Shown piece after piece: positions 1,720-47,695 of a DNA stretch of 50,885 nt. Location: positions 1 to 50,885 of the forward strand of contig JAUZOQ010000012.1 of the NCBI GenBank assembly GCA_030706385.1, in the 5' to 3' direction. The notes under the pieces are model-generated. The model had not been told where the DNA came from, searched no databases, and was given only the letters and a program-made list of their open reading frames with translations. Made by a program: the position numbers and the translations under genes. This DNA is from Bacteroidota bacterium. Lineage in GTDB: Bacteria; Bacteroidota; Ignavibacteria; Palsa-1295. The stretch's first letter is position 1. Every line of letters begins with the position of its first letter.

Positions 1720-3552
1720 CTATTTTGTAATGATCATCTTCTCCGAGAACGAGGTCGAAGGTGTGACCAGTTTGCAAATGTAGATCCCTCCTGGCAAGTC
1801 TCCGGCATCAAATGTTGCTGAATACTCTCCCCGTTCAACTGTACCACTAAACAGCGTTCTGACTTCTCTGCCTAATAGATCATAGATAGCGAGATGGATG
1901 AGAGTCCGATTGCTTGACGTGAACTGAATCGTTGACGAAGCGGTAAAAGGGTTCGGAAAATTCTGTTTCAGGGACAATGTTGGCGGCTGGGAGTTCGCAC
2001 TCACGGCCGATTTCAGATCATCCGGAGTAAATTTGTAAGCCCGATAATTATAATGTCCGCCGGGAAGAAGCAGTTCAATCGCCGTCGACCCATCGGGCTT
2101 TACTTCTGTAACTGAAGTCTGGTCGCAGATTCCCCAGCCGATGAGAGTATTCCCATTTGGAAGTCGTTGCACGCTTCCCATAGCTCCAGCGAAAATATCA
2201 GGATCATGGCGATATTCCCAGACCTTTGTTGCAGTCTTCGCGACCTCATCGATAGAGTACTCAAGCGCTCGCGAATACGCAAAAGGAGGCTCTCGGAAAT
2301 TTCCATTATCAAAAATAGTGATATTACCGTTCGCCAATCGCCGCATGTCATGCTGATGGAGGAAGGGGATAGTATCGTTCGTTGTGTGAAATTGATTATG
2401 CTTTCCGCCCCATCGCCAGATCATGCTTCCATCCTCTCGATTGATCTTCGTGATCTCATCAAGGCTGCGGCTCGAAAGAAGAAATGAGCCGTCACGATCA
2501 AGCTCAATCGCATTGCAATGTGCGGCATCGATTCTGCGTAAAGAAAAGTCCTGATAGGTTACATCGGTAATTGCGAAATGATCGTTTGTCCGCCAATCGA
2601 AAACGAGATTCTTATCCTTATCGAATTCCTCAATATCGTTATAGACTACAGTTGCTGTACTATCGCCGGACGAAATTACAGACCGCATATCAACGATGTC
2701 CGAATACACTCCAAGCAGTGCATAACCTCCATTGGGTAAAATACGAAGCTCATGCGAATCAGTCTCATATCCATTTGCAGCCTCGAAGCTATCGACAACT
2801 ACATAGTTCGAGTCGAGCCCGTAGAATTTTTTAGCAGCCAGATCAAAGTACGTGAAAAGGCCATTTGGCTGCGGCCTAAAATCTAGCCCGCCCTGCCGTG
2901 TTTTGTGGTACGAGATAGCATGCCCGTATGAATCCAAGATCATTAGGTATGTCCCGAATTGATCGCTGGTGTATTTAAAATCTGATAGATAGATATTACC
3001 TTCGGCAGGCCCATTCAATTTTGTAACTGCGATAACCGGAAAATCGGAAGGGACTGAATCCACAGCACTGCTCGAAAGCCACGGTTCACCCCGAAGATGA
3101 GAGTCTTCCTTTTCCAAAAGAGAATAGGGAAGAATCTTCACCTTGGAGATCTGAAATGAGAATTTGTAAGGAACAGTAAATCCACCGTAGGCACATCGGA
3201 TCGGGATCACCGATACTTGCACCTTTTCTCCTGCGGCAAAAATAATGTCCGGAGTAAAGATGATCGTTCTCTCATCGGTCGCAAGGATGAGTTTGCCCTT
3301 ATGAGATCCACTTAGTGATCCCGTTACGGTTACAGCTGATATAGGCAGCAAATTCCTGGATATCGCCTGTGCATAGCGAATCCCAATTGTGGTTTTCGCA
3401 GATACTTGGGTTGCATTCGCCGAAGGATACGTGTAATTGACCTTAACTTGAGCATCGGCAGTCACGGTGGCGAGCAACATGAAGATAGGTATGATCAACG
3501 CTGCTATCGGAGCGTGCAGTACAACCTGTTTGGGGATTTGATATGCCCGCAT
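1720..3552 (-). CDS. Secreted arylsulfotransferase (ASST)-like protein with T9SS sorting domain
   Basis: A 610-residue exported protein. Residues 1-35 are a signal peptide ending near ADAQ. Residues 38-140 form an Ig-like domain of the SbsA/Big_5 type (YPSANATQVSAKTTIGIRYA and a GEKVQVSV strand). Residues 170-510 are an ASST beta-propeller. The residues matching the arylsulfate sulfotransferase active site can be placed: His267 in DSHE, His345 and Asn347 in AHCN, Arg362 in SSRS and His401 in HQHD, the last being the expected sulfohistidine. Residues about 525-610 are a T9SS type A sorting domain (NFPNPFTASSTI, then GGIYICKL). Family members move sulfate between phenolic compounds; the substrate here is unknown. 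It follows its paralogue with a 3-bp gap and the two are probably translationally coupled. Confidence 0.85.
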   Translation of the reverse strand: MRAYQIPKQVVLHAPIAALIIPIFMLLATVTADAQVKVNYTYPSANATQVSAKTTIGIRYAQAISRNLLPISAVTVTGSLSGSHKGKLILATDERTIIFTPDIIFAAGEKVQVSVIPIRCAYGGFTVPYKFSFQISKVKILPYSLLEKEDSHLRGEPWLSSSAVDSVPSDFPVIAVTKLNGPAEGNIYLSDFKYTSDQFGTYLMILDSYGHAISYHKTRQGGLDFRPQPNGLFTYFDLAAKKFYGLDSNYVVVDSFEAANGYETDSHELRILPNGGYALLGVYSDIVDMRSVISSGDSTATVVYNDIEEFDKDKNLVFDWRTNDHFAITDVTYQDFSLRRIDAAHCNAIELDRDGSFLLSSRSLDEITKINREDGSMIWRWGGKHNQFHTTNDTIPFLHQHDMRRLANGNITIFDNGNFREPPFAYSRALEYSIDEVAKTATKVWEYRHDPDIFAGAMGSVQRLPNGNTLIGWGICDQTSVTEVKPDGSTAIELLLPGGHYNYRAYKFTPDDLKSAVSANSQPPTLSLKQNFPNPFTASSTIQFTSSNRTLIHLAIYDLLGREVRTLFSGTVERGEYSATFDAGDLPGGIYICKLVTPSTSFSEKMIITK

Positions 3553-3555
3553 ACG

Positions 3556-5430
3556 CTATTTGGATAATATCATCATTCGGGTTAACGCTGTAGTTCCGTC
3601 TGTAATTTCATAGAAATAGATTCCGTTCGGAAGCTGGGCGGCATCAAATTTTGCAGAATAACTGCCGGCATCGACAATGCCGTTGAAGAGAGTCTTTACC
3701 TTGACTCCAAGTGCGTTAAACACTTCCAATGAAATAGGAGACCGTACTCCAATCGTGAAGTTGATCGTCGATGATCCCTTGAATGGGTTCGGGTAGTTCT
3801 GTTGAAGTTGGAGAGAAGGGGAAGGAGATGTTGCATCAACTCCTTCCCTCATACCTGCGATATCATTTTTCGTGTATTTGAAAGCCCGGTACGTATAAAT
3901 GCCCGGATCAAATCTGATCTCTAGTGCTGTCGAGCCATCCGGTTTAACTTCAGTAACTGCAACGCTGTCGCAACTTCCCCAGCAGATGAAGGAGTTTCCA
4001 CTTTTAAGCCGTTGCACATAACCCATGGCATTTCCGAATACTTCAGGATCATGGTGATATTCCCAAACCTGGGTTGCAGTTTTGGCTTTCTCATCAAGTT
4101 TATATTCCACAGCTCTTGAGAACGGCATTGCCGTATTGTGAAAATTGCCATTGTCAAACATGATAATATTTCCGTTCAGCAGTCTTCGTACGGCATGTTG
4201 ATGAGAAAAAATGAGGGGATCGTCGACAAAGGTAAACTCATTATGCTTCCCGCCCCACCGCCAAACAATATTGCCAGTTTCTCGATCGATTTTTGTAACT
4301 TCATCCAGGCTACGGGAAGATAGAAGAAAAGTACTATCATTATCGAGTTCGAGGGAGTTGCAATGTGTCAGATCCAGGAATGGCTGTGCGAAATTTTCGT
4401 GGGTCGGATCAGCGTAGCTGAAATGATCCCTGGATCGCCACTCAAAGATGAGGTTTTTCGCGGCATCAAACTCTTGAATGATTCCTTCTGCAACAGTGAC
4501 GCTCGTATCTCCGTCACTTACATATTTGCTCATGTTAACCATTTCATCGACTTGTGCAAGCAGGGCATAGCCTCCATCGGGCAAGAAGATCAATTCATGG
4601 CTATCTGTGCTGTATCCATTGGCCGCTTCAAAGCTATCGACGACTATAAAATTCGAATCGAGTCCGTAAAACTTAAATTTGCTTGGATCTGCATCGAAAT
4701 AGGTATACATCCCATTGGGCTGGGGCTTAAAATCTTGGGCAAAAGCCGGCCACGTACTATGCTGAAAGAGGATATTGCCAGTATTATCCATTACGATCAA
4801 ATAGGTACCACTATCATTACGGGTAAACTTGAAGTTATCCATGTAGATATTCCCCGGTGCAGGACTATTGCTCTTCAGTATTCGAATTGTTGGAAAATCA
4901 TCAGGCAAGGATTCAGGGCTGGATTCATTTGATGGAAAAAATGGAGGCTGCAGATCAGGTGTGGATGGCGCTGGATTGGTCGGTGCAGGATGGACGAGAG
5001 TGCTAGGACGAATCCTTGTTTTCGAGACCTCAAATCCGAAGCTGAACGGGATAGTGCCTTCTCCGTTGACGCAAGTTAGAGATGAAGTACTTACCTGCAC
5101 CTTCTCACCTGCGAAGAAATTCTGATCGGGAGTAAAAATCACCGTTCTCCCATCCAATGCGAGCGTTAACTTGCCTGAGTGAATGCCACTTGAATTTCCT
5201 GAAACGACAAAATATTTGGTTTGAAGAGACGATTTGAGAATGGCTCCGGCGTATCGCACCCCAATTGTTGTTTTCGCGGAGACTTGCGACGCATTGGCCG
5301 ATGGGTAGGTGTAGCAAACTCCAACTGAATTTTTTGCGGTTTGTGCGTCGATCCAATTTGGGTTGATAGCGCATAGTAATATCCAATAAATCAGTAGTCG
5401 GGGAGAGGAATAAAATGATATCTGTTTCAT
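3556..5430 (-). CDS. Secreted arylsulfotransferase (ASST)-like protein with T9SS sorting domain, upstream paralogue
   Basis: Same architecture as the next gene downstream: signal peptide, SbsA/Big_5-type Ig-like domain, a Pro/Ser-rich linker that is longer here, ASST propeller and T9SS type A sorting domain (NYPNPFKGSSTI, LPNGIYFYEI). The active-site set is kept: His278, His356 and Asn358 in THCN, Arg373 in SSRS, His412 in HQHA. The start is placed at the ATG at 5430, giving a 624-residue protein with a good signal peptide (MKQISFYSSPRLLIYWILL). The longer frame to 5478 begins with GTG and adds residues that would spoil the signal. The two genes form a tandem duplication and probably one operon. 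A role in moving sulfate at the cell surface is inferred from the family. Confidence 0.85.
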   Translation of the reverse strand: MKQISFYSSPRLLIYWILLCAINPNWIDAQTAKNSVGVCYTYPSANASQVSAKTTIGVRYAGAILKSSLQTKYFVVSGNSSGIHSGKLTLALDGRTVIFTPDQNFFAGEKVQVSTSSLTCVNGEGTIPFSFGFEVSKTRIRPSTLVHPAPTNPAPSTPDLQPPFFPSNESSPESLPDDFPTIRILKSNSPAPGNIYMDNFKFTRNDSGTYLIVMDNTGNILFQHSTWPAFAQDFKPQPNGMYTYFDADPSKFKFYGLDSNFIVVDSFEAANGYSTDSHELIFLPDGGYALLAQVDEMVNMSKYVSDGDTSVTVAEGIIQEFDAAKNLIFEWRSRDHFSYADPTHENFAQPFLDLTHCNSLELDNDSTFLLSSRSLDEVTKIDRETGNIVWRWGGKHNEFTFVDDPLIFSHQHAVRRLLNGNIIMFDNGNFHNTAMPFSRAVEYKLDEKAKTATQVWEYHHDPEVFGNAMGYVQRLKSGNSFICWGSCDSVAVTEVKPDGSTALEIRFDPGIYTYRAFKYTKNDIAGMREGVDATSPSPSLQLQQNYPNPFKGSSTINFTIGVRSPISLEVFNALGVKVKTLFNGIVDAGSYSAKFDAAQLPNGIYFYEITDGTTALTRMMILSK

Positions 5431-5611
5431 AGTGGTGTGGTACGATGAAAGCATCAAATTGTCAAGTAGATCCAACACTATCTATACAATCCATACTCAC
5501 TTCTCATTCCGCAAATTAGGTGCAGTTTGTATCAGTAATGAGTAGGGACGCAATAAATAGTTTAATAATGCATGGAGAGTACTTTGGCCGGTAAATTGTT
5601 TCAGGCAATAT

Positions 5612-22075: not shown

Positions 22076-23269
22076 TTAATCCCCCCAAGGGTTGCTGAAT
22101 GCCTGGTTGGATTTATCAGCAAATTTGAAATCGGTCAGTGTCTTGAGGAATTCAACGATATCGTTGACGTCTGCATCGGAAAGGCTCATCTGTCCGATCT
22201 TCTCGATCTTATCGTCTTGATAAGGCGTGGTATGTGCGCCGCCCTTGCGGTAGCTGCCCAAAACATCGTAAAGCGACGCGAATCGCCCGTCATGCATATA
22301 TGGTCCGGAGAGTGCAACATTGCGCAGTGATGGCGTCTTAAATTTGTAATCGTCTTGAGAGTTTTGGGAGACATCGGATCTGCCCTTATCGGGTGGCTGC
22401 ATATTCATCTTCGGACCAAGACCGATTCCATTATCATGGAATTGCTGATCTGTAAAGTTGTATCCCGAATGGCATGATATACAATTTGCACCATTTACAT
22501 CTGTGAAGAGCTGTAGACCATGAAGTGCGGAGGCATTACCCTTGAGAGCAGAGGCATCGCCATTATTGTACTTATCAAATGCGCTCTGAGTGCTGATGAG
22601 CGTACGCTCGAAAGCAGCGATCGACTTTGCAATTCGCTCCATGGAAACGCGCGAATCGCCCCATGCAGCAGTAAACATCTCACCATAGGTCTTTCCAATT
22701 AGATCTCCTGGCCTGCCGCTCAGACGCTTAAAGAGCATGAGCGTATCATTGCTCCCAGGCTTAGAATTATAACCACTCGGTACGCTATCCTGCGCTTTAG
22801 GATCATTCGTGAAATTGTTTCCCATTTCAAGCGAATTAAAGATAGGTCCGGGTGCATGTTTTTCAAGGGATGCGAATCTGCCGTCCCAGGTAAAAGCCGT
22901 ATTATAGGCCACATTTGCGAGGGCCGGAGCGTTGCGATTGCCGTGTTGATGCTCGAAGCCAATGCTTGTGCTCGTGACATCAGAAAATCCATTGGCGACC
23001 TGATGGCAACTTCCGCAGGAGGTAGAGCCATCGACACTGAGCGCCTTATCGTAGAATAAGTGTCTTCCCAGTTCGATCTTCGCAGCAGAAGATGGGTTAT
23101 CCGCTGGCTCCACGACAGCGCCGGGCGATTTTGGGATTGAAGTATTGATCAAAGGCTGATCCTGAGTATTCGATCCGGCATCTTTGCAGCTTGCCAGGAA
23201 TGTCATCGATGCAACAACACCGAGAATTACGCCACCGAGGCGAAAAAAGGGAATGCGCTTATTTTTCAT
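22076..23269 (-). CDS. Di-haem cytochrome c peroxidase-family lipoprotein (downstream copy)
   Basis: A 397-residue periplasmic or outer-membrane lipoprotein of the CCP/MauG family, which reduces hydrogen peroxide with electrons from small cytochromes or oxidises other substrates. The signal ends in lipobox FLASC (Cys28). Two haem c motifs are present: CGSCH (Cys85, Cys88, His89) and CISCH (Cys263, Cys266, His267). Conserved CCP segments are ELGRHLFYDKALS, GNRNAPALANVAYN, WDGRF, and KTPSLRNVALSGPYMHDGRF. ATG 23269 is preferred over the GTG at 23284. A close paralogue lies 173 bp upstream on the same strand, and a terminator follows. It needs cytochrome c maturation genes, not seen here. Confidence 0.92.
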   Translation of the reverse strand: MKNKRIPFFRLGGVILGVVASMTFLASCKDAGSNTQDQPLINTSIPKSPGAVVEPADNPSSAAKIELGRHLFYDKALSVDGSTSCGSCHQVANGFSDVTSTSIGFEHQHGNRNAPALANVAYNTAFTWDGRFASLEKHAPGPIFNSLEMGNNFTNDPKAQDSVPSGYNSKPGSNDTLMLFKRLSGRPGDLIGKTYGEMFTAAWGDSRVSMERIAKSIAAFERTLISTQSAFDKYNNGDASALKGNASALHGLQLFTDVNGANCISCHSGYNFTDQQFHDNGIGLGPKMNMQPPDKGRSDVSQNSQDDYKFKTPSLRNVALSGPYMHDGRFASLYDVLGSYRKGGAHTTPYQDDKIEKIGQMSLSDADVNDIVEFLKTLTDFKFADKSNQAFSNPWGD

Positions 23270-23364
23270 GGTCAGTTTCTCCACTAGAGAAGTAATTAAT
23301 GATGCAATGAAAACTCTTCAAGTCAAATGCGTAAGAACTTCTGTATTTTAACACAAAGTCGCTT

Positions 23365-23373
23365 CAAAAGTTA
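23365..23373 (-). promoter_or_regulatory. Shared TAACTTTTG element upstream of the downstream cytochrome peroxidase gene
   Basis: TGTAACTTTTG on the minus strand, 96 bp upstream of the ATG. It is a one-base-longer version of the Bacteroidota TAnnTTTG element, and the same string stands upstream of the paralogue at 24785-24793. It may be a promoter or a shared regulator site. Confidence 0.4.
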
Positions 23374-23442
23374 CAGCCTGCCATTGCGAAAATTAGGGCA
23401 TTATCTGATCCATTCGCCTCCCCGCAATCCAGGCTAAACCTC

Positions 23443-24654
23443 CTAATTTCCCCAAGGATTAGCATATCTTCCTGCTTTATCGGCAGTGAATGAATAATCC
23501 GTTAGAGTATTCAAGAAAGCTACAAGATCAGCAATATCCTCATCGCTTAATGTCAACGGCTTGATGTTAGCGTCCTTATTCGCTGTATTATGCTTGCCAC
23601 CTTTGAGATAGTTATCACGAATGACCATCTCAAGAGTCTTGTACCTTCCATCGTGCATATAGGGTGCGCTCAGAGCCACGTTTCGCAGCGATGGAGTCTT
23701 AAATTTCCCCACATCTGATTTTAATTTTGTGATAGCAAATCTACCCTCGTCTCCTTGCTGGTTGATTCCGATCCCATTGTCGTGGTAGCTCTGATCAGTG
23801 AAGTTGTATCCGGAGTGGCAGGAGACACAATTAGCGCCTTTTGTATCAGTAAAGAGTTGGAATCCGTGAATTGCAGAAGCATTATATTTGAGCACTTCCT
23901 TATCGCCGTTATTATACTTGTCGAAATCGCTGCGGGTACTAATGAATGTACGCTCAAAAGCCGCAATTGACTTGGCGATCATATCCAAAGTGAATCGATC
24001 GGCTCCCGGACCCCAAGCTGCTTTCCGGAGATCGTCATAGGTCTTGCCATTGATATCCTTCCTGAGGGCTTTAGGTTCGCCGTTAAGGCGCTTGAATAGG
24101 AAATTCGTATCGTTATTGCCGGGTTTTGAATTGTAGCCACTGGGAATACTATCGAAAGCACTTTGGGAGAAATTATTACCCATCTCGACTGAATTAAAGA
24201 TCGGCCCCGGTGCATGCTTCTCCAAAGTGCCAAATCTTCCATCCCACGTGAAAGAGGTGTTGTAGGCTACATTAGCCAGAGAGGGTGCATTGCGATTTCC
24301 CATTTGACCATCGAACCCCATACTCGTTGCAAGTGAGCGACTGTCAGAAAAACCTGAACTGACATCATGGCACGATGCGCAAGAAGTTGAATGGTCAACG
24401 CTCATTTCTTTATCGTAAAAGAGATGTCTGCCGAGTTCAACTTTAGCTGCAGTTGTAGGATTATCCGCTGGGTCGACGAGCGGAGCCAAAGACTTAGGTA
24501 TCGATGAATTGACCGGCGTCTGATCGTTTGGATTGATAGAAGAGGGGTTCGTGGCGACATTTTCCTGTTTGCAACTTACAAGAAATAATGACAGTGCAAA
24601 AACAAGAATAGAGGCGCTGCCATGGCGCAGGGACACAGTGCGGGTAATGTGCAT
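23443..24654 (-). CDS. Di-haem cytochrome c peroxidase-family lipoprotein (upstream copy)
   Basis: A 403-residue paralogue of the next gene. The signal peptide ends in lipobox FLVSC (Cys28). The two haem c attachment motifs are CASCH (Cys92, Cys95, His96) and CVSCH (Cys276, Cys279, His280). The CCP core segments (ELGRHLFYDKEMS, GNRNAPSLANVAYN, KTPSLRNVALSAPYMHDGRY) are nearly the same as in the other copy. A short insertion (KALRKDINGKTYDDL) sits before the second haem. ATG 24654 is chosen; the frame extends to a TTG at 24717 but the extra part would break the lipoprotein signal. Two copies may differ in expression or partner cytochrome. It shares a TGTAACTTTTG upstream element with its neighbour. 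Confidence 0.92.
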   Translation of the reverse strand: MHITRTVSLRHGSASILVFALSLFLVSCKQENVATNPSSINPNDQTPVNSSIPKSLAPLVDPADNPTTAAKVELGRHLFYDKEMSVDHSTSCASCHDVSSGFSDSRSLATSMGFDGQMGNRNAPSLANVAYNTSFTWDGRFGTLEKHAPGPIFNSVEMGNNFSQSAFDSIPSGYNSKPGNNDTNFLFKRLNGEPKALRKDINGKTYDDLRKAAWGPGADRFTLDMIAKSIAAFERTFISTRSDFDKYNNGDKEVLKYNASAIHGFQLFTDTKGANCVSCHSGYNFTDQSYHDNGIGINQQGDEGRFAITKLKSDVGKFKTPSLRNVALSAPYMHDGRYKTLEMVIRDNYLKGGKHNTANKDANIKPLTLSDEDIADLVAFLNTLTDYSFTADKAGRYANPWGN

Positions 24655-24784
24655 AGCTTGTTTCTCCAGAGAGGTATAAAAGAACGATGCCTTAGTTGTG
24701 CTTAAGAACTTCTCCAACCTACAAATGACTAACTCCCGATACCGCGAGAAGTTCTATTCTATTGAAAAGAACACCCGCCGTCTG

Positions 24785-31069: not shown

Positions 31070-34000
31070 TTATGCTTCACCAAGCGCGACCGGTTCATCA
31101 CCTGCATATCCCGGCCTCGGTTTTCTGAATTTCTTTAAGAAGAGAATTCTGCCAAAGAAGCGAGGGAATTTCGTACGCCAGCCTTCGACGAACGTGTACA
31201 TGACGGGAACAAGTAACAACGTCAGAAGCATCGAACTCGTCAAACCGCCAATGATCGCAATAGCCATTCCTTGTCGGAACTCCGAGCCCTCTCCAGCTCC
31301 AAGAGCAAGAGGTAGCATTCCAAGGATCATCGTAACTGTCGTCATGATAATCGGCCGCAAGCGTGTCGGTCCTGCTTCGAGTAATGATTCGAACAGGCCA
31401 TGCCCCAAAGCTCTTCGAGCGTTCGTTCGATCAACGATGAGAATAGCGTTCTTCGTGACGAGACCCATCAACATGATCATACCAACCATCGTAAAGATGG
31501 AGAGCGTCTTATGCCCGAGCCATAACATGGTCAACGCTCCGATCAGCGCCACAGGAAGACTGAACATAATGGTGAACGGATGCACATAGCTTTCGAAAAG
31601 TGCTACCATGATCATATAAACGAAGAGAATTGCCAGCAGGAAAGCGATCATCATGTCGCCGCCTGATCGTTGCTGGTTTTCGGCATCACCTGCAAAATAC
31701 GGTTCCGAGATACCGCTCCGTCTACTTACCTTTGCGATCTCCTTGCGAATATCCTTTACGACATCTCCTAAAGGTCTGCCGATCAAGTTTCCATAGACGA
31801 TGACAACTCGCTCTCGATTCTTTCTGCCGATTTGTGAGGGACCTTTGCCATAGGTAAGAGTCGCAATGTCGGAGACCTTTACTTGCTGGCCGAGATGGTT
31901 AAGTAAAGTCAGACGTGCTACATCTTTAGCATTTGAGCGATTCACACGATCCAGAATTACGTTGATATCGTATTCAGTCTCACCCTCTTTGTATTTTGCG
32001 TCGGTATTGCCCGAGAGTGCCGTACGCAGAGCAAATGCCGCTTCGCCGAGCGACATGTTATTAGCGGCAAGCCTGTCGCGATCAAAGATGATCTTGACTT
32101 CCGGCTGGCCCTCTTCATATGAGCTCTTAAGGTCTCGCAATCCGGGAATATTCTTAATATGCTCGATGAGTGTATCAGAGTATGAGCTGATGGCACCCAG
32201 ATCATCGCCTCGAGTTTCCATTTGAATTGGTGATTGATTTGCCGATCCGAAGATTCCTATAGGCTGCGTGCGAATCAGTAGTCCGGGAATTTGTGCCGCC
32301 ATCGCCGTTACATTTTTCATCTCGTCATCGGTCGAGCGGATACGTTTATCACGCTCCGGTAGGCGTACAGATATTTGTCCGACATTCTGTCGTTCAACAA
32401 CGCCCCAAGCATTCTCTTGCCTACCGACAACGGTTTGGAAGCGCACAACATTTGAATCCTTTGCAAGCAACCCTTCGTAGAGCTGAATGAGTGAATCAGT
32501 TGTCTCAACGTTGGTGCCGGCCGGGAAATCAAAGTTGGCAGCAAATTCACCTCGGTCCGGCTGAGTAATGAATTCCGTTCCGATCTTGCCATTAATGACA
32601 AGACTGCAACTTCCAAGAAATAGAAGCGCTGAACTAGTAACAATGACCCATCGATGCTTCAGCGACCAGCCAAGGATATTCTTGTACTTAACTTCAAGCC
32701 AGTCCTGAAAGCGCTCGAACTTGTCCGAGAGCCAGCGCAATGGCGGAAATTTGATCCCTTCATGGGCCTTACCAAACTTCGCAGCCAGCATTGGTGTAAG
32801 CGTGAAGCTGACAAAAAGTGACATCAAGGTCGATACAACCACAGTGAGACCGAATTCGCGGAAGATCTTGCCCGTGATTCCGCTGACAAGTGAAATAGGC
32901 AAGAACACCACGACGTCTACGAGCGTGATTGCAAGCGCTGCAAAACCTATCTCGTTTCGCCCTTTGATCGCAGCGTTCACCGGAGTTTCACCTTCGTCAA
33001 GTTTGCGATGGATATTCTCCAGAACGACGATCGAGTCATCGACCAGGATTCCTATCACAAGCGACAGGGCCATCATCGACATCATATTGATGGTAAATCC
33101 AAATACCCACATGAAAATAAAGGTGGATACCAGTGATGTCGGTATTGCGATCAATACGATAAGCGCATTCCGGCCGGATCGCAAGAAGAGGAAGAGCACG
33201 CAAGATACAAGTAAGATGGCGAGTCCAAGATCCCGAAACACTTCTCTGATGGATGACCTCGTAAACTGCGTGGCATCCTGAGCTATATCGAATTTTATCC
33301 CGTCGGGCTGATATTCGTTTGTCAAATTGGCAAGCATTGCCTGTACATTATCGGCCGTTTGATTCGCATTCGCATCGGAAGTCTTGATGACGTTAATGCC
33401 AACTGCATCTTTACCGGAGAGGCGAGTAGGTTTGTAGTTCTCGTTATATGTGTCCTCCACTTTTGCAACGTCACCGAGGTAGATCGTCGAGCCCGAAGCC
33501 AACGTAGCGATCGGAAGGGTCTTGATCTCATTCGTAGATTGAAATTTGCCCTTCACACGAACGATGTACTGATCGGTCGGTTGTTTTACAGTACCGGTTG
33601 GGAAATCAAGATTCTCCGTAGCAAGAGCTTGCTGGATCTGGACGATCGAAAGGTTATATGAGCGGAGTTTGTCATTATCAACGCTGACTTTGATCTGACG
33701 CTCCCTTCCACCGGTGATTTCTACCTGCCCAACTCCTTCAGTGGATTCCAGACGTGCTTTAAGCTTGTCCTTCGCTAGCTGATACAGTTCTGTCGGAGTA
33801 AGTACGGTCGATGAAAGAGCAATTCGAAGGATCGGCATTGCACCAATATCGTTCTTTTGCACTTTGGGTGGATCGGCATCCTTCGGAAGTTTCGAGCGTA
33901 TCTGATCGACGCGGCGCTGAACATCGGCTGCTGCCTCATCGGAATTTGCGCTCAGCAAGTACTGGCCGAGAACGACGGAGTACCCCTCATTTGAGAATGA

Positions 34001-34243
34001 GCGGACGTTATCGAGATTGCTCGTTCCTGCAACTGCCTCTTCGATCGGCTTGGTAACTAAATCCTCTATCTCCTCCGGGCCGGCGCCGGGATAGGTGGTC
34101 AATACGGTGATATACGGCCAATCCATTTTCGGAAGCAGATCAGTGCCTAGTCGTGAAAGACCGAACAAACCCATGACGGCGAGCGCAACGAAAACGATCG
34201 TAATAAATGCTGGCCGTTTTATCGAAAGTTCTGTAATAGTCAT
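31070..34243 (-). CDS. RND efflux pump inner-membrane subunit, AcrB/HAE1 family
   Basis: Proton-driven inner-membrane pump of a tripartite drug efflux system. The 1057-residue protein has the RND layout: first helix at residues 10-30, periplasmic porter and docking domains, helices 2-6 at about 340-560, a second periplasmic domain, and helices 8-12 near the C terminus. Opening PAFITIVFVALAVMGLFGL and LLPKMDWPYITVLTTYPGAGPEEIE are typical of the HAE family. Helix 4 has GILVDDSIVVLENIHRK, with Asp402 and Asp403 matching the proton-relay pair of AcrB. It is the last gene of the tetR-tolC-acrA-acrB unit, 65 bp after the adaptor gene. The substrate range cannot be predicted. Confidence 0.95.
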   Translation of the reverse strand: MTITELSIKRPAFITIVFVALAVMGLFGLSRLGTDLLPKMDWPYITVLTTYPGAGPEEIEDLVTKPIEEAVAGTSNLDNVRSFSNEGYSVVLGQYLLSANSDEAAADVQRRVDQIRSKLPKDADPPKVQKNDIGAMPILRIALSSTVLTPTELYQLAKDKLKARLESTEGVGQVEITGGRERQIKVSVDNDKLRSYNLSIVQIQQALATENLDFPTGTVKQPTDQYIVRVKGKFQSTNEIKTLPIATLASGSTIYLGDVAKVEDTYNENYKPTRLSGKDAVGINVIKTSDANANQTADNVQAMLANLTNEYQPDGIKFDIAQDATQFTRSSIREVFRDLGLAILLVSCVLFLFLRSGRNALIVLIAIPTSLVSTFIFMWVFGFTINMMSMMALSLVIGILVDDSIVVLENIHRKLDEGETPVNAAIKGRNEIGFAALAITLVDVVVFLPISLVSGITGKIFREFGLTVVVSTLMSLFVSFTLTPMLAAKFGKAHEGIKFPPLRWLSDKFERFQDWLEVKYKNILGWSLKHRWVIVTSSALLFLGSCSLVINGKIGTEFITQPDRGEFAANFDFPAGTNVETTDSLIQLYEGLLAKDSNVVRFQTVVGRQENAWGVVERQNVGQISVRLPERDKRIRSTDDEMKNVTAMAAQIPGLLIRTQPIGIFGSANQSPIQMETRGDDLGAISSYSDTLIEHIKNIPGLRDLKSSYEEGQPEVKIIFDRDRLAANNMSLGEAAFALRTALSGNTDAKYKEGETEYDINVILDRVNRSNAKDVARLTLLNHLGQQVKVSDIATLTYGKGPSQIGRKNRERVVIVYGNLIGRPLGDVVKDIRKEIAKVSRRSGISEPYFAGDAENQQRSGGDMMIAFLLAILFVYMIMVALFESYVHPFTIMFSLPVALIGALTMLWLGHKTLSIFTMVGMIMLMGLVTKNAILIVDRTNARRALGHGLFESLLEAGPTRLRPIIMTTVTMILGMLPLALGAGEGSEFRQGMAIAIIGGLTSSMLLTLLLVPVMYTFVEGWRTKFPRFFGRILFLKKFRKPRPGYAGDEPVALGEA

Positions 34244-34308
34244 GTTCTTATCTGTAAAATGAGAATTGCAATTTTCTGATTATCGATTGTGAGTGGTCAT
34301 CGATGGTC

Positions 34309-35388
34309 TTATTGCTGAATTTTTACATGAGATCCATCTTTCAATTGCGGCTGACCAAATGTCACGACCGTTTCTCCTTGATTGAGTCCTTCGACGATTT
34401 CCGCGCGATCGGTTGATGTCGTTCCAATCTTCACACCGCGAAGGTGTGCAATTCCTTTGTCATCTACTGCGAATACTTGAGTGCGTGTTCCGTTATTGAT
34501 AACGGCAGTTGCCGGAACCGACGGCACGTTGCGCGCTGCTTCGCGTTCGATCTCCGCTCGGGCGAACATTCCGCTTTTGAGCAGCCTGTCATTGTTGGGG
34601 ATCTCGACCTCCACAGTGTATGAGCGCGCCATATCTGCTTTGCTGGAGATCGTTGAAATTACTCCGGCAAATTCTTGACCTGGCATTGCGTCCACAGATA
34701 CCTTTACTTTATCTCCAACTTTGATGAGGGGTACGTCCAGTTCTCCGACTCCGATGCGCAATTTCATCTTTGAGTCGTCGACGATCGTGGCTACCTTCGT
34801 ACCGGGGCTCAGCAATTCGCCCTGATTGACATATCGAACGGCGACAATTCCGGGGAATGGAGATTTGACGATCGCATCAGACAATTGTCGTTTGGCAAGC
34901 GACTCACCGGATTGTGCAGCCTTCAGAGAAGCATCTGCACTCTTAACTTGAAGTTCAGCAAGTTCAATCTGGCTCTTCGTCACAACGCTGGACTTGATCA
35001 ACTCCTGCATTCTTCCGAGATCGATCTTCGCTTTTTCGAGAGCTGCCTCTGCAGTAAGACGCTGGGCTTCGGCCTGTTGCACAGCGATAGCCTTCAATTC
35101 GTTATCAACGACGACAAGGGCTGAGCCTTGTCCAACGCGTGAGCCATTGTTCACTGAGACATTGAGTATGCGCCCCTGCGTTTCGCTGTTGACATTCGCT
35201 TCGCGAATGCCTTCAAGTGTTCCATTAGCTTTAAATGTTGCCGTCATCGGTGCGAGTGCAACTGTTCCTGTTCTGACGGTGAAAATATCCTCCGGCTTTT
35301 GTCCGTTGCCTGCTCCATCGGTCTTGCTGCAGGAAGAAAGTGAAGCCATAGAAATGGCGATGATCGAGTAGAAAAGAAATTGTTTCAT
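34309..35388 (-). CDS. RND efflux periplasmic adaptor lipoprotein, AcrA/HlyD family
   Basis: Membrane fusion protein linking the RND pump to the TolC-like channel. The 359-residue protein has a lipoprotein signal (MKQFLFYSIIAISMASLSSC, lipobox LSSC at Cys20). It continues with the first beta-strand region (FKANGTLEGIREANVNSETQGRI), the lipoyl half motif VNNGSRVGQGSALVVVD, an alpha-hairpin of about residues 95-165 rich in Ala/Gln/Lys, the second lipoyl half and beta-barrel (IVKSPFPGIVAVRYVNQGELL; IVDDSKMKLRIGV) and a C-terminal membrane-proximal domain (IVEGLNQGETVVTFG). The order is typical of the RND type. Gaps of 41 bp before it and 65 bp after it fit one operon. Confidence 0.94.
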   Translation of the reverse strand: MKQFLFYSIIAISMASLSSCSKTDGAGNGQKPEDIFTVRTGTVALAPMTATFKANGTLEGIREANVNSETQGRILNVSVNNGSRVGQGSALVVVDNELKAIAVQQAEAQRLTAEAALEKAKIDLGRMQELIKSSVVTKSQIELAELQVKSADASLKAAQSGESLAKRQLSDAIVKSPFPGIVAVRYVNQGELLSPGTKVATIVDDSKMKLRIGVGELDVPLIKVGDKVKVSVDAMPGQEFAGVISTISSKADMARSYTVEVEIPNNDRLLKSGMFARAEIEREAARNVPSVPATAVINNGTRTQVFAVDDKGIAHLRGVKIGTTSTDRAEIVEGLNQGETVVTFGQPQLKDGSHVKIQQ

Positions 35389-35429
35389 GATGTAGTTTGG
35401 GTAGAAAAAATTGAGTTAGAAATAATGTA

Positions 35430-36785
35430 TTATCGAGTGCCCAGCGCTTTTCTGTATTTAGCATCGGCGATCAAGACATCATAGGTCGTAGTCGATAGGT
35501 TTGCCTTTGCATTTGCAAGTGTGGTCTGCGCGTCCAGCAAAGTTATAAGCGGAGTCGTGCCGTTGTCGTACTGTAGTTTTGTGATGCGGTAATTTTCTTC
35601 AGCGCTGGCAATTTGCTTCTTAGCGATGCCAAGGCGTTCAGTTGCATTAACTTTCTCCAATCGCGCATTCTCGATCTCCAAGCGAACACTATTGAATGCC
35701 GATTCTGCCCTGAAGCGAAGTTCTTCGATCTGAGCCTCAGTTTCCTGCATTTTCGCATTCGTACCGAACCCGGAAAAGAGATTCCATTTGAGCTGCACTC
35801 CGCCGACGAAAAGATCAGCATCCGGTGAGAACTGGAGTTTTGTTTCCATCCATCCATAACTTGCGAAGAGCGCGACGTTCGGAAGATAATCTGAGAAATT
35901 CATTCTTGCCGTTGCTCCAAGAGCATCACCAGTACGCAGGATCTGAAGCAGTTCCGGACGATTCTCAAATGCACGGTCCTCATCTTCGTGAAGAGGCGGA
36001 AGCGTCAGAGAGCTTGTACCATCGGTATTCTTCGATGCCAATTCCTGGCTTGCTCCGGCGATGGAAGCGATCTCGGAAGGCGATGGGGTTTCGATGGGAG
36101 CGTCGTAATCTCTCTTGAGCAAATTATTAAAATGTGTTTTAGCAAGTGTTGCCATGTTCTCTGCCGAGAGCACATCTCCTTGTGCAGCCGCAACACCAAC
36201 GTCGGCGCGTAGCACATCATTTTTTGGAACCCTGTCATTAGCAAAGAGCGCATTCGAAACTTTCAGGTTTTCTTCTGCAAGGGCAAGAGCGTTCTTTCTG
36301 ATCGAAACGAGTTCGTTTGCTTTCGAATAGTTGTAATAGGCCTCGCTTACTTCATAAATTGTCGAAAGCTCCTTTGCCGATACTTCTGCCGTTGATGCAT
36401 CGCGGTAAGATTTCGAAACGGACATTCCCTGCCAAATTCCAAAGTTTGCGATGGGCCAGCTCACTGTGAATTCATTGTCCCAAGGGACGATCCCAAGCGC
36501 TGCTGTATTGAATTTGCCGACACTTGGGATATCCAGTACGCGGCCGCCGGAGTACTGCGAAAATTTCGAAGTGAAGTCCAACCTAGGATAAAGGTATGAT
36601 GAAGCTTCTTTTACCTGTGCATCGATATTTTTCCAACGAGCGCGGCTTGCATTGACGTCGGGGTTATGGGCCAGCGCTGTTTCTATGTAGCCAGGCAATG
36701 GTTGTGGCATCGGAGCTGTCTGCGAATAGCCATGTGAAGCTCCAAGGAGTAATCCAAGCGATAGTAGACGGAGAAGGCGTTTCAT
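35430..36785 (-). CDS. TolC-family outer-membrane efflux channel
   Basis: Outer-membrane exit duct of the efflux pump. The 451-residue protein has a signal peptide (MKRLLRLLSLGLLLGASHGYS) and two OEP repeats, each with long helices and a beta-barrel segment. Examples are PGYIETALAHNPDVNASRARW and ASSYLYPRLDFTSKFSQYSG at the N terminus, then NRPELLQILRTGDALGATARMN, YLPNVALFASYGWM and FVGGVQLKWNLFSGFGTNAK in the second half, with the closing helix KLQYDNGTTPLITLLDAQTTLANAK. It is the second gene of the efflux operon, 27 bp after tetR. Confidence 0.93.
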   Translation of the reverse strand: MKRLLRLLSLGLLLGASHGYSQTAPMPQPLPGYIETALAHNPDVNASRARWKNIDAQVKEASSYLYPRLDFTSKFSQYSGGRVLDIPSVGKFNTAALGIVPWDNEFTVSWPIANFGIWQGMSVSKSYRDASTAEVSAKELSTIYEVSEAYYNYSKANELVSIRKNALALAEENLKVSNALFANDRVPKNDVLRADVGVAAAQGDVLSAENMATLAKTHFNNLLKRDYDAPIETPSPSEIASIAGASQELASKNTDGTSSLTLPPLHEDEDRAFENRPELLQILRTGDALGATARMNFSDYLPNVALFASYGWMETKLQFSPDADLFVGGVQLKWNLFSGFGTNAKMQETEAQIEELRFRAESAFNSVRLEIENARLEKVNATERLGIAKKQIASAEENYRITKLQYDNGTTPLITLLDAQTTLANAKANLSTTTYDVLIADAKYRKALGTR

Positions 36786-36812
36786 ATCAATTGATGGTGG
36801 TTATGTATGAAT

Positions 36813-37601
36813 TCAAGATATTATTTTCTCATTTAAATCGGCGTTTACATTCATGTCGTCGAGTGCAGTACCCGGACTTATTCCGAGCTCGGCCATTGAA
36901 GGAAAGTAGATCGGCTGAAGATATTTTGCCCCTTCCGGTGTGACAATATGAGACATCAGAATTCCGAGAGATAGATCATATACCTTCCGAAAATCCATAG
37001 AGCAGAAGTTGAAGGCCTGCTTTTGAATCGCAATGCTTCCTTTTCGCTGATTCTCTTGTACTTTCTCATACATCCGGAGAACAGACATCGAGTTCAGCCA
37101 GGAAAGGAGGGACGATGAGAAGCTATCGACTTCGGCCTTGATTGTTCCTTCCGCTTTACCTTCTTCGATCGTACCAATGAGTAATCTCCAGACCCAATTA
37201 TTTTGCTCATTCATCTCTGCCAGAAGTTCATCGGAGATTTGGTCACGCATCGGGAAATCGGCATTGCACATCATGCCGAAATGGAAAGGATGCTCAGCGG
37301 CAAAACTCCAATAGGCATCACCAATTGCCATGATCTTCTTAATCCCAAGATTTTCCTTTTCTACAGCTTTTGCAAATCCCTCATTCATCATTTCAATAGC
37401 CCGGAGCATGATTCCGACCTGCAGTTCTTCCTTATTTCTGTAGTAGAGATAGATCGTCCCTTTAGCCAGCTCGGCGTCTCGGGCAATATCATCCATTGTC
37501 GATTGTTGAATGCCCTTTGCTTGAAAAACCCGTTCTGTTGCATCCAGAATCTGGTTTCTTCGAGCTTCTTTTTCACGTTCTTTCCTCTCAATAATACCCA
37601 T
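36813..37601 (-). CDS. TetR/AcrR-family transcriptional regulator of the efflux operon
   Basis: A 262-residue regulator, somewhat longer than most TetR proteins. The N-terminal helix-turn-helix is residues 16-62 (RRNQILDATERVFQAKG, then TMDDIARDAELAKGTIYLYYRNKEEL). The rest is a helical ligand-binding domain. It is the first gene of the operon and its promoter region holds a perfect 17-bp palindrome of TetR type at 37670-37686, so it probably represses its own operon and is released by a ligand that the pump exports. ATG 37601 fits the family start. The inducer cannot be inferred. Confidence 0.92.
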   Translation of the reverse strand: MGIIERKEREKEARRNQILDATERVFQAKGIQQSTMDDIARDAELAKGTIYLYYRNKEELQVGIMLRAIEMMNEGFAKAVEKENLGIKKIMAIGDAYWSFAAEHPFHFGMMCNADFPMRDQISDELLAEMNEQNNWVWRLLIGTIEEGKAEGTIKAEVDSFSSSLLSWLNSMSVLRMYEKVQENQRKGSIAIQKQAFNFCSMDFRKVYDLSLGILMSHIVTPEGAKYLQPIYFPSMAELGISPGTALDDMNVNADLNEKIIS

Positions 37602-46430: not shown

Positions 46431-47639
46431 ATGACGACTGAAGAGATACGTTCGAAAAAACTCACCGACCTCGTAATTGTAAGAGATCCGAAAGTAGCAT
46501 CGCAATATAAAAACGGCGTAAAAGTACCCATAACGACCTTCATTGAAGATTATATGAATGGCCGGGTCGATATAACCTGCGACGTTCAACAGCTTCTGCA
46601 AAACCGCACTCTGTTCTTTAATTATCGTTATGTTGGGCACCACCTGAAATTCCTATTTAGCCAATTCATTCCACAAGTTGTTATTCACTCGAAGAAGCAG
46701 GATGAACGCGTGATTCGCGATCATTATGACCGCGGAAATGATTTCTTCGGTGCATTCTTGGGAGATAGAATGATCTACACCTCTGCCTTCTTTAAGACGG
46801 GCAAGGAAGATCTCGAGACAGCGCAGGACAACAAGTTAAATCTTGTCTGCCAAAAGCTCCAGCTCAAAAAAGGCGAGCGCCTTCTCGATATCGGATGCGG
46901 ATGGGGTACACTTGCTGCACATTCGGCAAAATATTACGGCACCGATTCGACAGGTATTACGATCGCCCAGGCAGGAGCAGATTATGCTAATGCTCAGATC
47001 GAACGTTGGGGCGTAAAGGATCATGCGCGCGTAAACCGTATGGATTACCGATCGATCCCGCCTGATAAGTACGACAAGATCTCTTGCCTGGAAATGGCAG
47101 AGCACGTCGGAATCAAGAACTTCCAGAAATTCATGAGGCAGATCGCCGGTCTTCTTAAGGATGACGGTTTGTTCTATCTTCAGATCGCTGGTCTACGTGC
47201 GGGTTACCATCAGGAGTCTCTCATCTGGGGTGGGTTCATGGGCCAATATATTTTCCCGGGTGCTGACGCAAGCATGCCGCTTTCTTTCGTCGTCAAACGT
47301 CTCGAAGGCGCCGGATTCGAAATTCATAGTGTCGAAAACATTGGCATTCATTACTCGCAGACGATACAGCTTTGGTATTATAACTGGCAATCTCACAAGG
47401 AAGCAGTTCTCAAAGCATACGGCGAATGGTGGTTCAGATGCTGGGAAATTTTCCTCGGCTGGTCGGTCGATATCGCCAAGCAGGGCAATTCGACATGTTT
47501 CCAGATCGTTTGCAATAAGAACAAAGATGAGTTCGATCGTCGCCGCTGGTTTGGCGGAGTCAATCTCGGCGAGCGCGACCTACATACAAATGGGCAAAAA
47601 TATGGTGGTGCACCTATCTTGGAGAAGGCCCACCTATAA
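46431..47639 (+). CDS. SAM-dependent methyltransferase, cyclopropane synthase superfamily, sphingolipid C9-methyltransferase-like
   Basis: A 402-residue enzyme of the cyclopropane-fatty-acyl-phospholipid synthase/mycolic acid cyclopropane synthase superfamily, which adds a carbon from S-adenosylmethionine to a lipid. Residues 1-90 are a soluble N-terminal domain. The catalytic part has DHYDRGNDFF, MIYTSAFF, the SAM-binding LLDIGCGWGT (residues 151-160), MDYRSIP, and CLEMAEHVG (Glu224, His225). It then carries FYLQIAGLR, FPGADAS, and a C-terminal IGIHYSQTIQLWYYNW. The cysteine of E. coli Cfa that helps bind bicarbonate (YSC) is replaced by Ser118 (YTS). From memory these motifs match fungal sphingolipid C9-methyltransferases better than bacterial Cfa. 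No N-terminal membrane helices are present, unlike the fungal enzymes. A strong terminator follows. Confidence 0.85.
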   Translation: MTTEEIRSKKLTDLVIVRDPKVASQYKNGVKVPITTFIEDYMNGRVDITCDVQQLLQNRTLFFNYRYVGHHLKFLFSQFIPQVVIHSKKQDERVIRDHYDRGNDFFGAFLGDRMIYTSAFFKTGKEDLETAQDNKLNLVCQKLQLKKGERLLDIGCGWGTLAAHSAKYYGTDSTGITIAQAGADYANAQIERWGVKDHARVNRMDYRSIPPDKYDKISCLEMAEHVGIKNFQKFMRQIAGLLKDDGLFYLQIAGLRAGYHQESLIWGGFMGQYIFPGADASMPLSFVVKRLEGAGFEIHSVENIGIHYSQTIQLWYYNWQSHKEAVLKAYGEWWFRCWEIFLGWSVDIAKQGNSTCFQIVCNKNKDEFDRRRWFGGVNLGERDLHTNGQKYGGAPILEKAHL

Positions 47640-47663: not shown

Positions 47664-47695
47664 AGGCGCGATCCGAAAGGAATTGCGCCTTTTTT
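47664..47695 (+). terminator. Rho-independent terminator after the methyltransferase gene
   Basis: A stem with AGGCGC/GCGCCT at its base, extended past a bulge, is followed by six T residues (47690-47695), 25 bp after the methyltransferase stop. The T run is directly followed by the next gene's promoter element. Confidence 0.88.

Follow-up and report, generated by a model that had tools for sequence, protein, structure and literature searches.

A C9-methyl branch on sphingolipids counts as a hallmark of fungi and has been discussed as an antifungal target. The C9-methyltransferase that introduces it has been described as an enzyme found only in fungi (PMC9325734; PMC13161914), where Delta8 desaturation of the sphingolipid comes first and C9 methylation second (PMC3887071). 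The Neurospora crassa enzyme has 525 aa, with helices at residues 53-75 and 87-109, an EHV triplet at about residue 341 and a tail of 185 aa, and the scumbo allele 5801 of Neurospora has lost the EHV triplet (PMC9325734). This protein (NCU07859/scumbo) and its counterparts in C. neoformans (Smt1) and F. graminearum (MT2) have a CMAS-like catalysis domain, as does the bacterial protein examined here. No bacterial C9-methyltransferase was found described in the literature searched, which left out most subscription papers; no mention of the peptide CLEMAEHVG was found there, and no C9-methyltransferase was among the matches of the PDB searches.

The gene considered here lies in a stretch of 50,885 nucleotides (the window) from a member of the Bacteroidota whose 3.5 Mb genome is 96% complete, and occupies positions 46431..47639 of the forward strand as an open reading frame of 402 aa with an ATG start and a TAA stop. 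We propose, with a probability of about 0.6, that its product uses SAM to methylate one carbon of a double bond in a bacterial sphingoid base or ceramide, in the manner of the fungal C9-methyltransferase. Residues 86-359 (46686..47507) make up a CMAS domain with the cyclopropane synthase fold (Pfam E=2.8e-66, and an AlphaFold model), so that the earlier note was right to recognise a cyclopropane synthase core, and the motifs that it singled out are all in place on the forward strand: MIYTS (residues 114-118, 46770..46784), CLEMAEHVG (219-227, 47085..47111), FYLQIAGLR (248-256, 47172..47198), FPGADAS (275-281, 47253..47273), and IHYS (306-309) and WYYNW (315-319) within a segment that begins GIHYS (305-319, 47343..47387). 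These motifs resemble those of the fungal sphingolipid C9-methyltransferases. The SAM-binding motif I, LDIGCGWGT (152-160, 46884..46910, forward strand), is invariant across 15 aligned members of the family defined below, and the ADAS of FPGADAS (278-281) is a signature of that family which is absent from the Cfa group. Among PDB structures, Cfa and mycolic acid cyclopropane synthases come closest to the AlphaFold model (pLDDT 80.6), so that Cfa and the window protein have the fold in common but differ in the catalytic pocket. The mycolic acid enzymes CmaA1, MmaA2 and UmaA are alike in catalytic fold (rmsd 1.6-2 A over about 280 columns) but only about 24-26% identical to the window protein and without its N-terminal domain, and UmaA keeps a Cys where the window protein has Ser118.

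Scored with the NCBIfam Cfa models, the protein reaches 197-212 bits against equivalog cut-offs of 400-650, and is thereby rejected as Cfa. A search of the phylum returned ten full-length homologues at 53-87% identity, followed after a gap by next-best matches at no more than 36%, and a genome collection supplied five more at 52-56%, two of them in Myxococcota MAGs and one each in a Kiritimatiellae, an Aureispira and a Bacteroidetes MAG, with the remainder at 39% or less. The closest relatives of the window protein are up to 91% identical to it and the Myxococcota homologues about 41-57%, and a search of viral contigs gave just ordinary Cfa-like or weak matches. In a 69-protein tree these proteins form a single clade of 16 (SH-aLRT 100, stem 1.61) that leaves outside the Cfa of E. 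coli, Lactobacillus and Aquifex. A 52-protein tree of a wider set, to which 18 Myxococcota homologues had been added, likewise has a single clade of 34 (support 100/100, stem 1.99), in which the window protein is joined by 33 relatives whose hosts are Bacteroidota, Myxococcota and a Kiritimatiellota sponge symbiont, and which lies outside all Cfa. The grouping with bacterial Cfa that the earlier note had named as evidence against its proposal was thus found in neither tree. Mean column identity within the family is 66% (15 sequences), a degree of conservation that is far beyond chance, and on these comparisons the proteins constitute a bacterial family, previously unremarked, of predicted lipid methyltransferases, a family that is separate from the ordinary cyclopropane synthases. 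The annotation of its members, otherwise called cyclopropane synthases, would be corrected accordingly.

The separation extends to the active site. We take the residues with which E. coli Cfa holds bicarbonate to be Cys139, Glu239, His266, Ile268 and Tyr317, and in an alignment with 6bqc their equivalents in the window protein are Ser118, Glu224, Gln251, Ala253 and Tyr308; the fold, the SAM motif, Glu224 and Tyr308 are common to both proteins, but three of the five residues are replaced (Cys139 by Ser118, as had been surmised at the outset, His266 by Gln251 and Ile268 by Ala253). Among the 16 family members of the first tree, to which all of these residue counts refer, Ser stands at the Cys139 site and Gln at the His266 site in every one, and Ala at the Ile268 site in 14, with Thr in the other two. 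Cys, His and Ile predominate at the three sites in 98 other CMAS proteins, 94 of which have the Cys. A 12-site signature, SLEQ[AT]ADASWW[CA], is matched at 11 or more sites by 16/16 members and at no more than three of the 12 by the 98 other proteins; some of the 18 Myxococcota rows added later, e.g., the L265/L266 and L252b group, depart from the residue pattern. That the bicarbonate base is lost is in keeping with a reaction that would end without ring closure. This loss also bears on the reading of the window protein as a divergent cyclopropane fatty acid synthase that functions as E. coli Cfa does, for which one can cite the identical fold, the top PDB matches to Cfa in both sequence and structure, the retention of Glu224 and Tyr308, and the finding that this is the sole full CMAS protein in the host genome (three further PF02353 matches there are weak and partial). 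We consider that reading improbable in view of the replacement of the three residues across the family, its monophyly far from all Cfa, a score half that of the NCBIfam Cfa cut-off (212 vs 400 bits), and co-occurrence, set out below, with one rare desaturase and not with unsaturated fatty acids generally.

The window protein itself has no N-terminal membrane helix (top 19-residue hydropathy 0.85) and is the short, soluble form of its family. The earlier note, which had remarked that the N-terminal helices of the fungal enzyme are missing, was correct for this protein but not for the family, since seven Myxococcota homologues carry two such membrane helices (hydropathy 2.0-2.8). In these seven the helices start 269-273 and 240-247 aa before the EHV, as compared with 288 and 254 aa in the N. 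crassa enzyme (from the coordinates in PMC9325734), and the proteins are predicted to have 504-525 aa with a tail of 175 aa. The window protein has its EHV at residues 224-226 and, counted from the E of that triplet, a tail of 179 aa to the 185 of N. crassa. Homologues of the family occur in 29/241 genomes of a Myxococcota class sample, and in the 52-protein tree the helix-bearing group falls together with the Bacteroidota and Kiritimatiellota proteins, nested among the diverse soluble forms of Myxococcota. One Myxococcota genome (G699, L252:7438-11128) has two methyltransferase paralogs in divergent orientation, one membrane-anchored and one soluble, within 4 kb. The N. crassa primer OEB392 reads DPNKEE, which fits the DPxE found after TSG[IM]F in several of the Myxococcota proteins, a match too short to weigh. 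The two helices at similar spacing are a likeness between the fungal enzyme and these bacterial relatives that the window protein lacks, and because they are absent we do not file it as a member of the fungal type; it is a relative of that type which probably works like one. The membrane-anchored relatives, together with the desaturase partnership described below, point to a lipid substrate and make it very improbable that the protein methylates a nitrogen or carbon of some small molecule, in the way of the plant N-methyltransferases and with no link to membrane lipids, a notion that derives from the plant coclaurine-type N-methyltransferases, which have the same fold and appear among the search matches, albeit more weakly than Cfa.

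A sphingolipid gene is to be found elsewhere in the genome. The check that the earlier note had proposed, a search for serine palmitoyltransferase (SPT), turned up an 801-aa host protein (G000:C94:5823-8225, i.e., L117:1372-3774 or L152:5823-8225; PDB and profile searches) whose N-terminal half matches PDB 3a2b at E=6.5e-111 and whose best NCBIfam matches are SPT models, yet below their strict cut-offs. The other alpha-oxoamine synthases of the host are Kbl (over its cut-off) and BioF (adjoining bioB and bioA). The C-terminal half of the 801-aa protein is a GNAT-like acyltransferase domain. The same SPT-GNAT fusion occurs in three other genomes (G208, G164 and G128), the two being separate genes elsewhere, and the fusion, a Rosetta-stone hint, makes the SPT-linked GNAT a candidate ceramide synthase. 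SPT and GNAT are both present in 11/11 methyltransferase-positive Bacteroidota genomes of the phylum sample. SPT is common in the phylum (225/297 genomes), however, and to find it is by itself weak evidence. The Aureispira MAG, which may be incomplete, has a homologue and Kbl with no clear SPT, and in a Polyangia MAG the SPT was seen only as a fragment at a contig edge. In no genome examined does the methyltransferase gene stand beside SPT, and a comparison of its neighbours across Bacteroidota and Myxococcota showed no conservation, the operon and the sponge symbiont described below excepted.

A more specific partner is a membrane desaturase of 290 aa (PF00487, no cytochrome b5; G000:C118:39236-40105, i.e., L126:1375-2244), which we call the L126 type. 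For it no NCBIfam match was found and a PDB search gave nothing useful. Its orthologs occur in 20/297 genomes of the phylum (host counted, one weak match left out), and they are distributed over 11/11 methyltransferase-positive and 9/286 methyltransferase-negative genomes (Fisher 5e-15). Counted by family the co-occurrence has a value of 1e-5 and within gene-carrying families, where listed family members only were used, 6e-4, and in all of these tests ancestry is not fully corrected for. In a class sample that overlaps the phylum sample, the desaturase is present in 23/25 positive vs 28/230 negative genomes; the two positives that lack it are 67%-complete MAGs. In one genome (G481) the methyltransferase and desaturase genes are immediate neighbours on one strand, with about 46 bases between them, and form an operon. 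In G144 the desaturase gene shares a strand with SPT at a distance of 1.9 kb; in G027, of the same genus, the distance to SPT is about 9.5 kb, and in both genomes a short-chain dehydrogenase that is a candidate ketosphinganine reductase follows SPT; in G133 the desaturase gene is 3.9 kb from a GNAT gene. Occurrence is nested, the methyltransferase within the desaturase and the desaturase within SPT, as the fungal order of Delta8 desaturation and then C9 methylation predicts (PMC3887071). The L126 type is named here as a candidate sphingoid-base desaturase without cytochrome b5, and as the candidate to stand in for a Delta8 desaturase in the host. Both PF00487 proteins of the host lack cytochrome b5, and no Delta8-type desaturase fused to cytochrome b5 was found in its genome, a difference from fungi, in which the Delta8 desaturase carries that fusion; a partner desaturase and SPT in the same genome are common to the fungal systems and the host. 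The other host desaturase, L127 (DesA family), was rejected as a partner, as it occurs in only 2/11 positive genomes.

A desaturase of the L126 type could also be an acyl-lipid desaturase, and those relatives with the CMAS fold whose function is known act on acyl chains of phospholipids or mycolates. The methyltransferase might then act on an unsaturated acyl chain of a glycerophospholipid, or on the N-acyl chain of a ceramide, made by that desaturase, with a methyl-branched or methylene fatty acid as its product, and the wide occurrence of SPT in the phylum suits this alternative. We regard it as possible but unlikely, given that in two unrelated families SPT or GNAT genes are found close to the desaturase, that relatives of the window protein have the layout of the fungal enzyme, and that the partner in the Kiritimatiellae symbiont G297 is a cytochrome-b5 front-end desaturase with a motif like that of Delta8-sphingolipid desaturases. 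This MAG is presumably from a sponge, to judge from its isolate name (Mycale hentscheli). Its methyltransferase homologue comes directly after the cytochrome-b5/FA_desaturase gene, which includes the stretch NTHHLVSNSIEHDPDIQYLPIFAV, typical of Delta8-sphingolipid desaturases. BLAST found no ortholog of this desaturase among those compared. Both genes (L035:8446-11095) contain in-frame TAG stops, and the desaturase a frameshift as well; they are either decayed genes or products of assembly errors. A second G297 locus (L216:7114-10561) groups an FA_hydroxylase fragment, a GNAT, an NAD-epimerase and a desaturase amid many transposase remnants, and has the look of a gene set for ceramide modification similar to that of eukaryotes; its desaturase is DES1-like, and a PDB search with that protein gave nothing useful. 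An SPT/BioF-like gene of G297 adjoins yet another desaturase.

Under the proposed sphingolipid reading, ceramide would be made by the SPT together with the GNAT-type N-acyltransferase fused to it, which is probably the ceramide synthase, and the L126-type membrane desaturase would introduce a double bond. As a cytosolic (peripheral) C-methyltransferase with the CMAS fold, the window enzyme would then place a methyl group, donated by SAM, on one carbon of the C=C of the sphingoid base in a bacterial (dihydro)ceramide; loss of a proton would leave a methyl-branched alkene in place of a cyclopropane ring. We infer the lipid substrate, the order of the steps, the survival of the double bond and C9 as the methylated carbon. 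The claim of the earlier note that the protein resembles the fungal enzyme rather than Cfa is partly supported: neither of the two findings that it had named as refuting was made, since the protein does not group with Cfa and the genome has SPT, and the desaturase co-occurrence and operon and the two-helix relatives speak for it as well. Kinship with the fungal proteins rests on architecture, pathway context and motif resemblance and not on a tree; the host is bacterial, and the fungal comparison drew on published coordinates, one primer and motif resemblance.

Some bacteria may thus make methylated sphingolipids in the fungal style. Were this so, C9-methylation chemistry would be extended to bacteria and an undetected class of bacterial sphingolipids would be predicted, soluble versions of the enzyme would become available for structural work, and the evolutionary origin of the fungal enzyme would become testable. 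Rather more tentatively, and at well under even odds, we suggest that Bacteroidota, Myxococcota and a sponge-associated member of the Kiritimatiellota make or once made methyl-branched unsaturated sphingolipids of the fungal kind by means of a C9-methyltransferase/desaturase pair, that the membrane-anchored form in Myxococcota gave rise to the fungal enzyme or is its sister, and that this lipid modification is bacterial in origin or shared between domains.

At the locus itself, a terminator-like GC-rich hairpin with a T-run (47665..47695, forward strand), recognised by eye rather than scored by a program, lies just 3' of the methyltransferase gene and, together with a divergent upstream gene, suggests a single-gene transcript. 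The GC content of the gene is 0.47, and its GC and GC3 are like those of the adjoining genes, which gives no hint of recent foreign origin. The window contains no SPT, desaturase or other sphingolipid gene by tblastn or Pfam, in agreement with what had been noted from the sequence earlier. Elsewhere it holds a tandem pair of arylsulfotransferase-like (ASST) proteins, each with a type IX secretion sorting tail (1720-5478), a tandem pair of MauG/di-haem cytochrome c peroxidase-like proteins (22076-24717), and an apparent RND efflux operon with an AcrB-type pump, an HlyD-type adaptor, an outer-membrane efflux protein and a TetR regulator (31070-37601).
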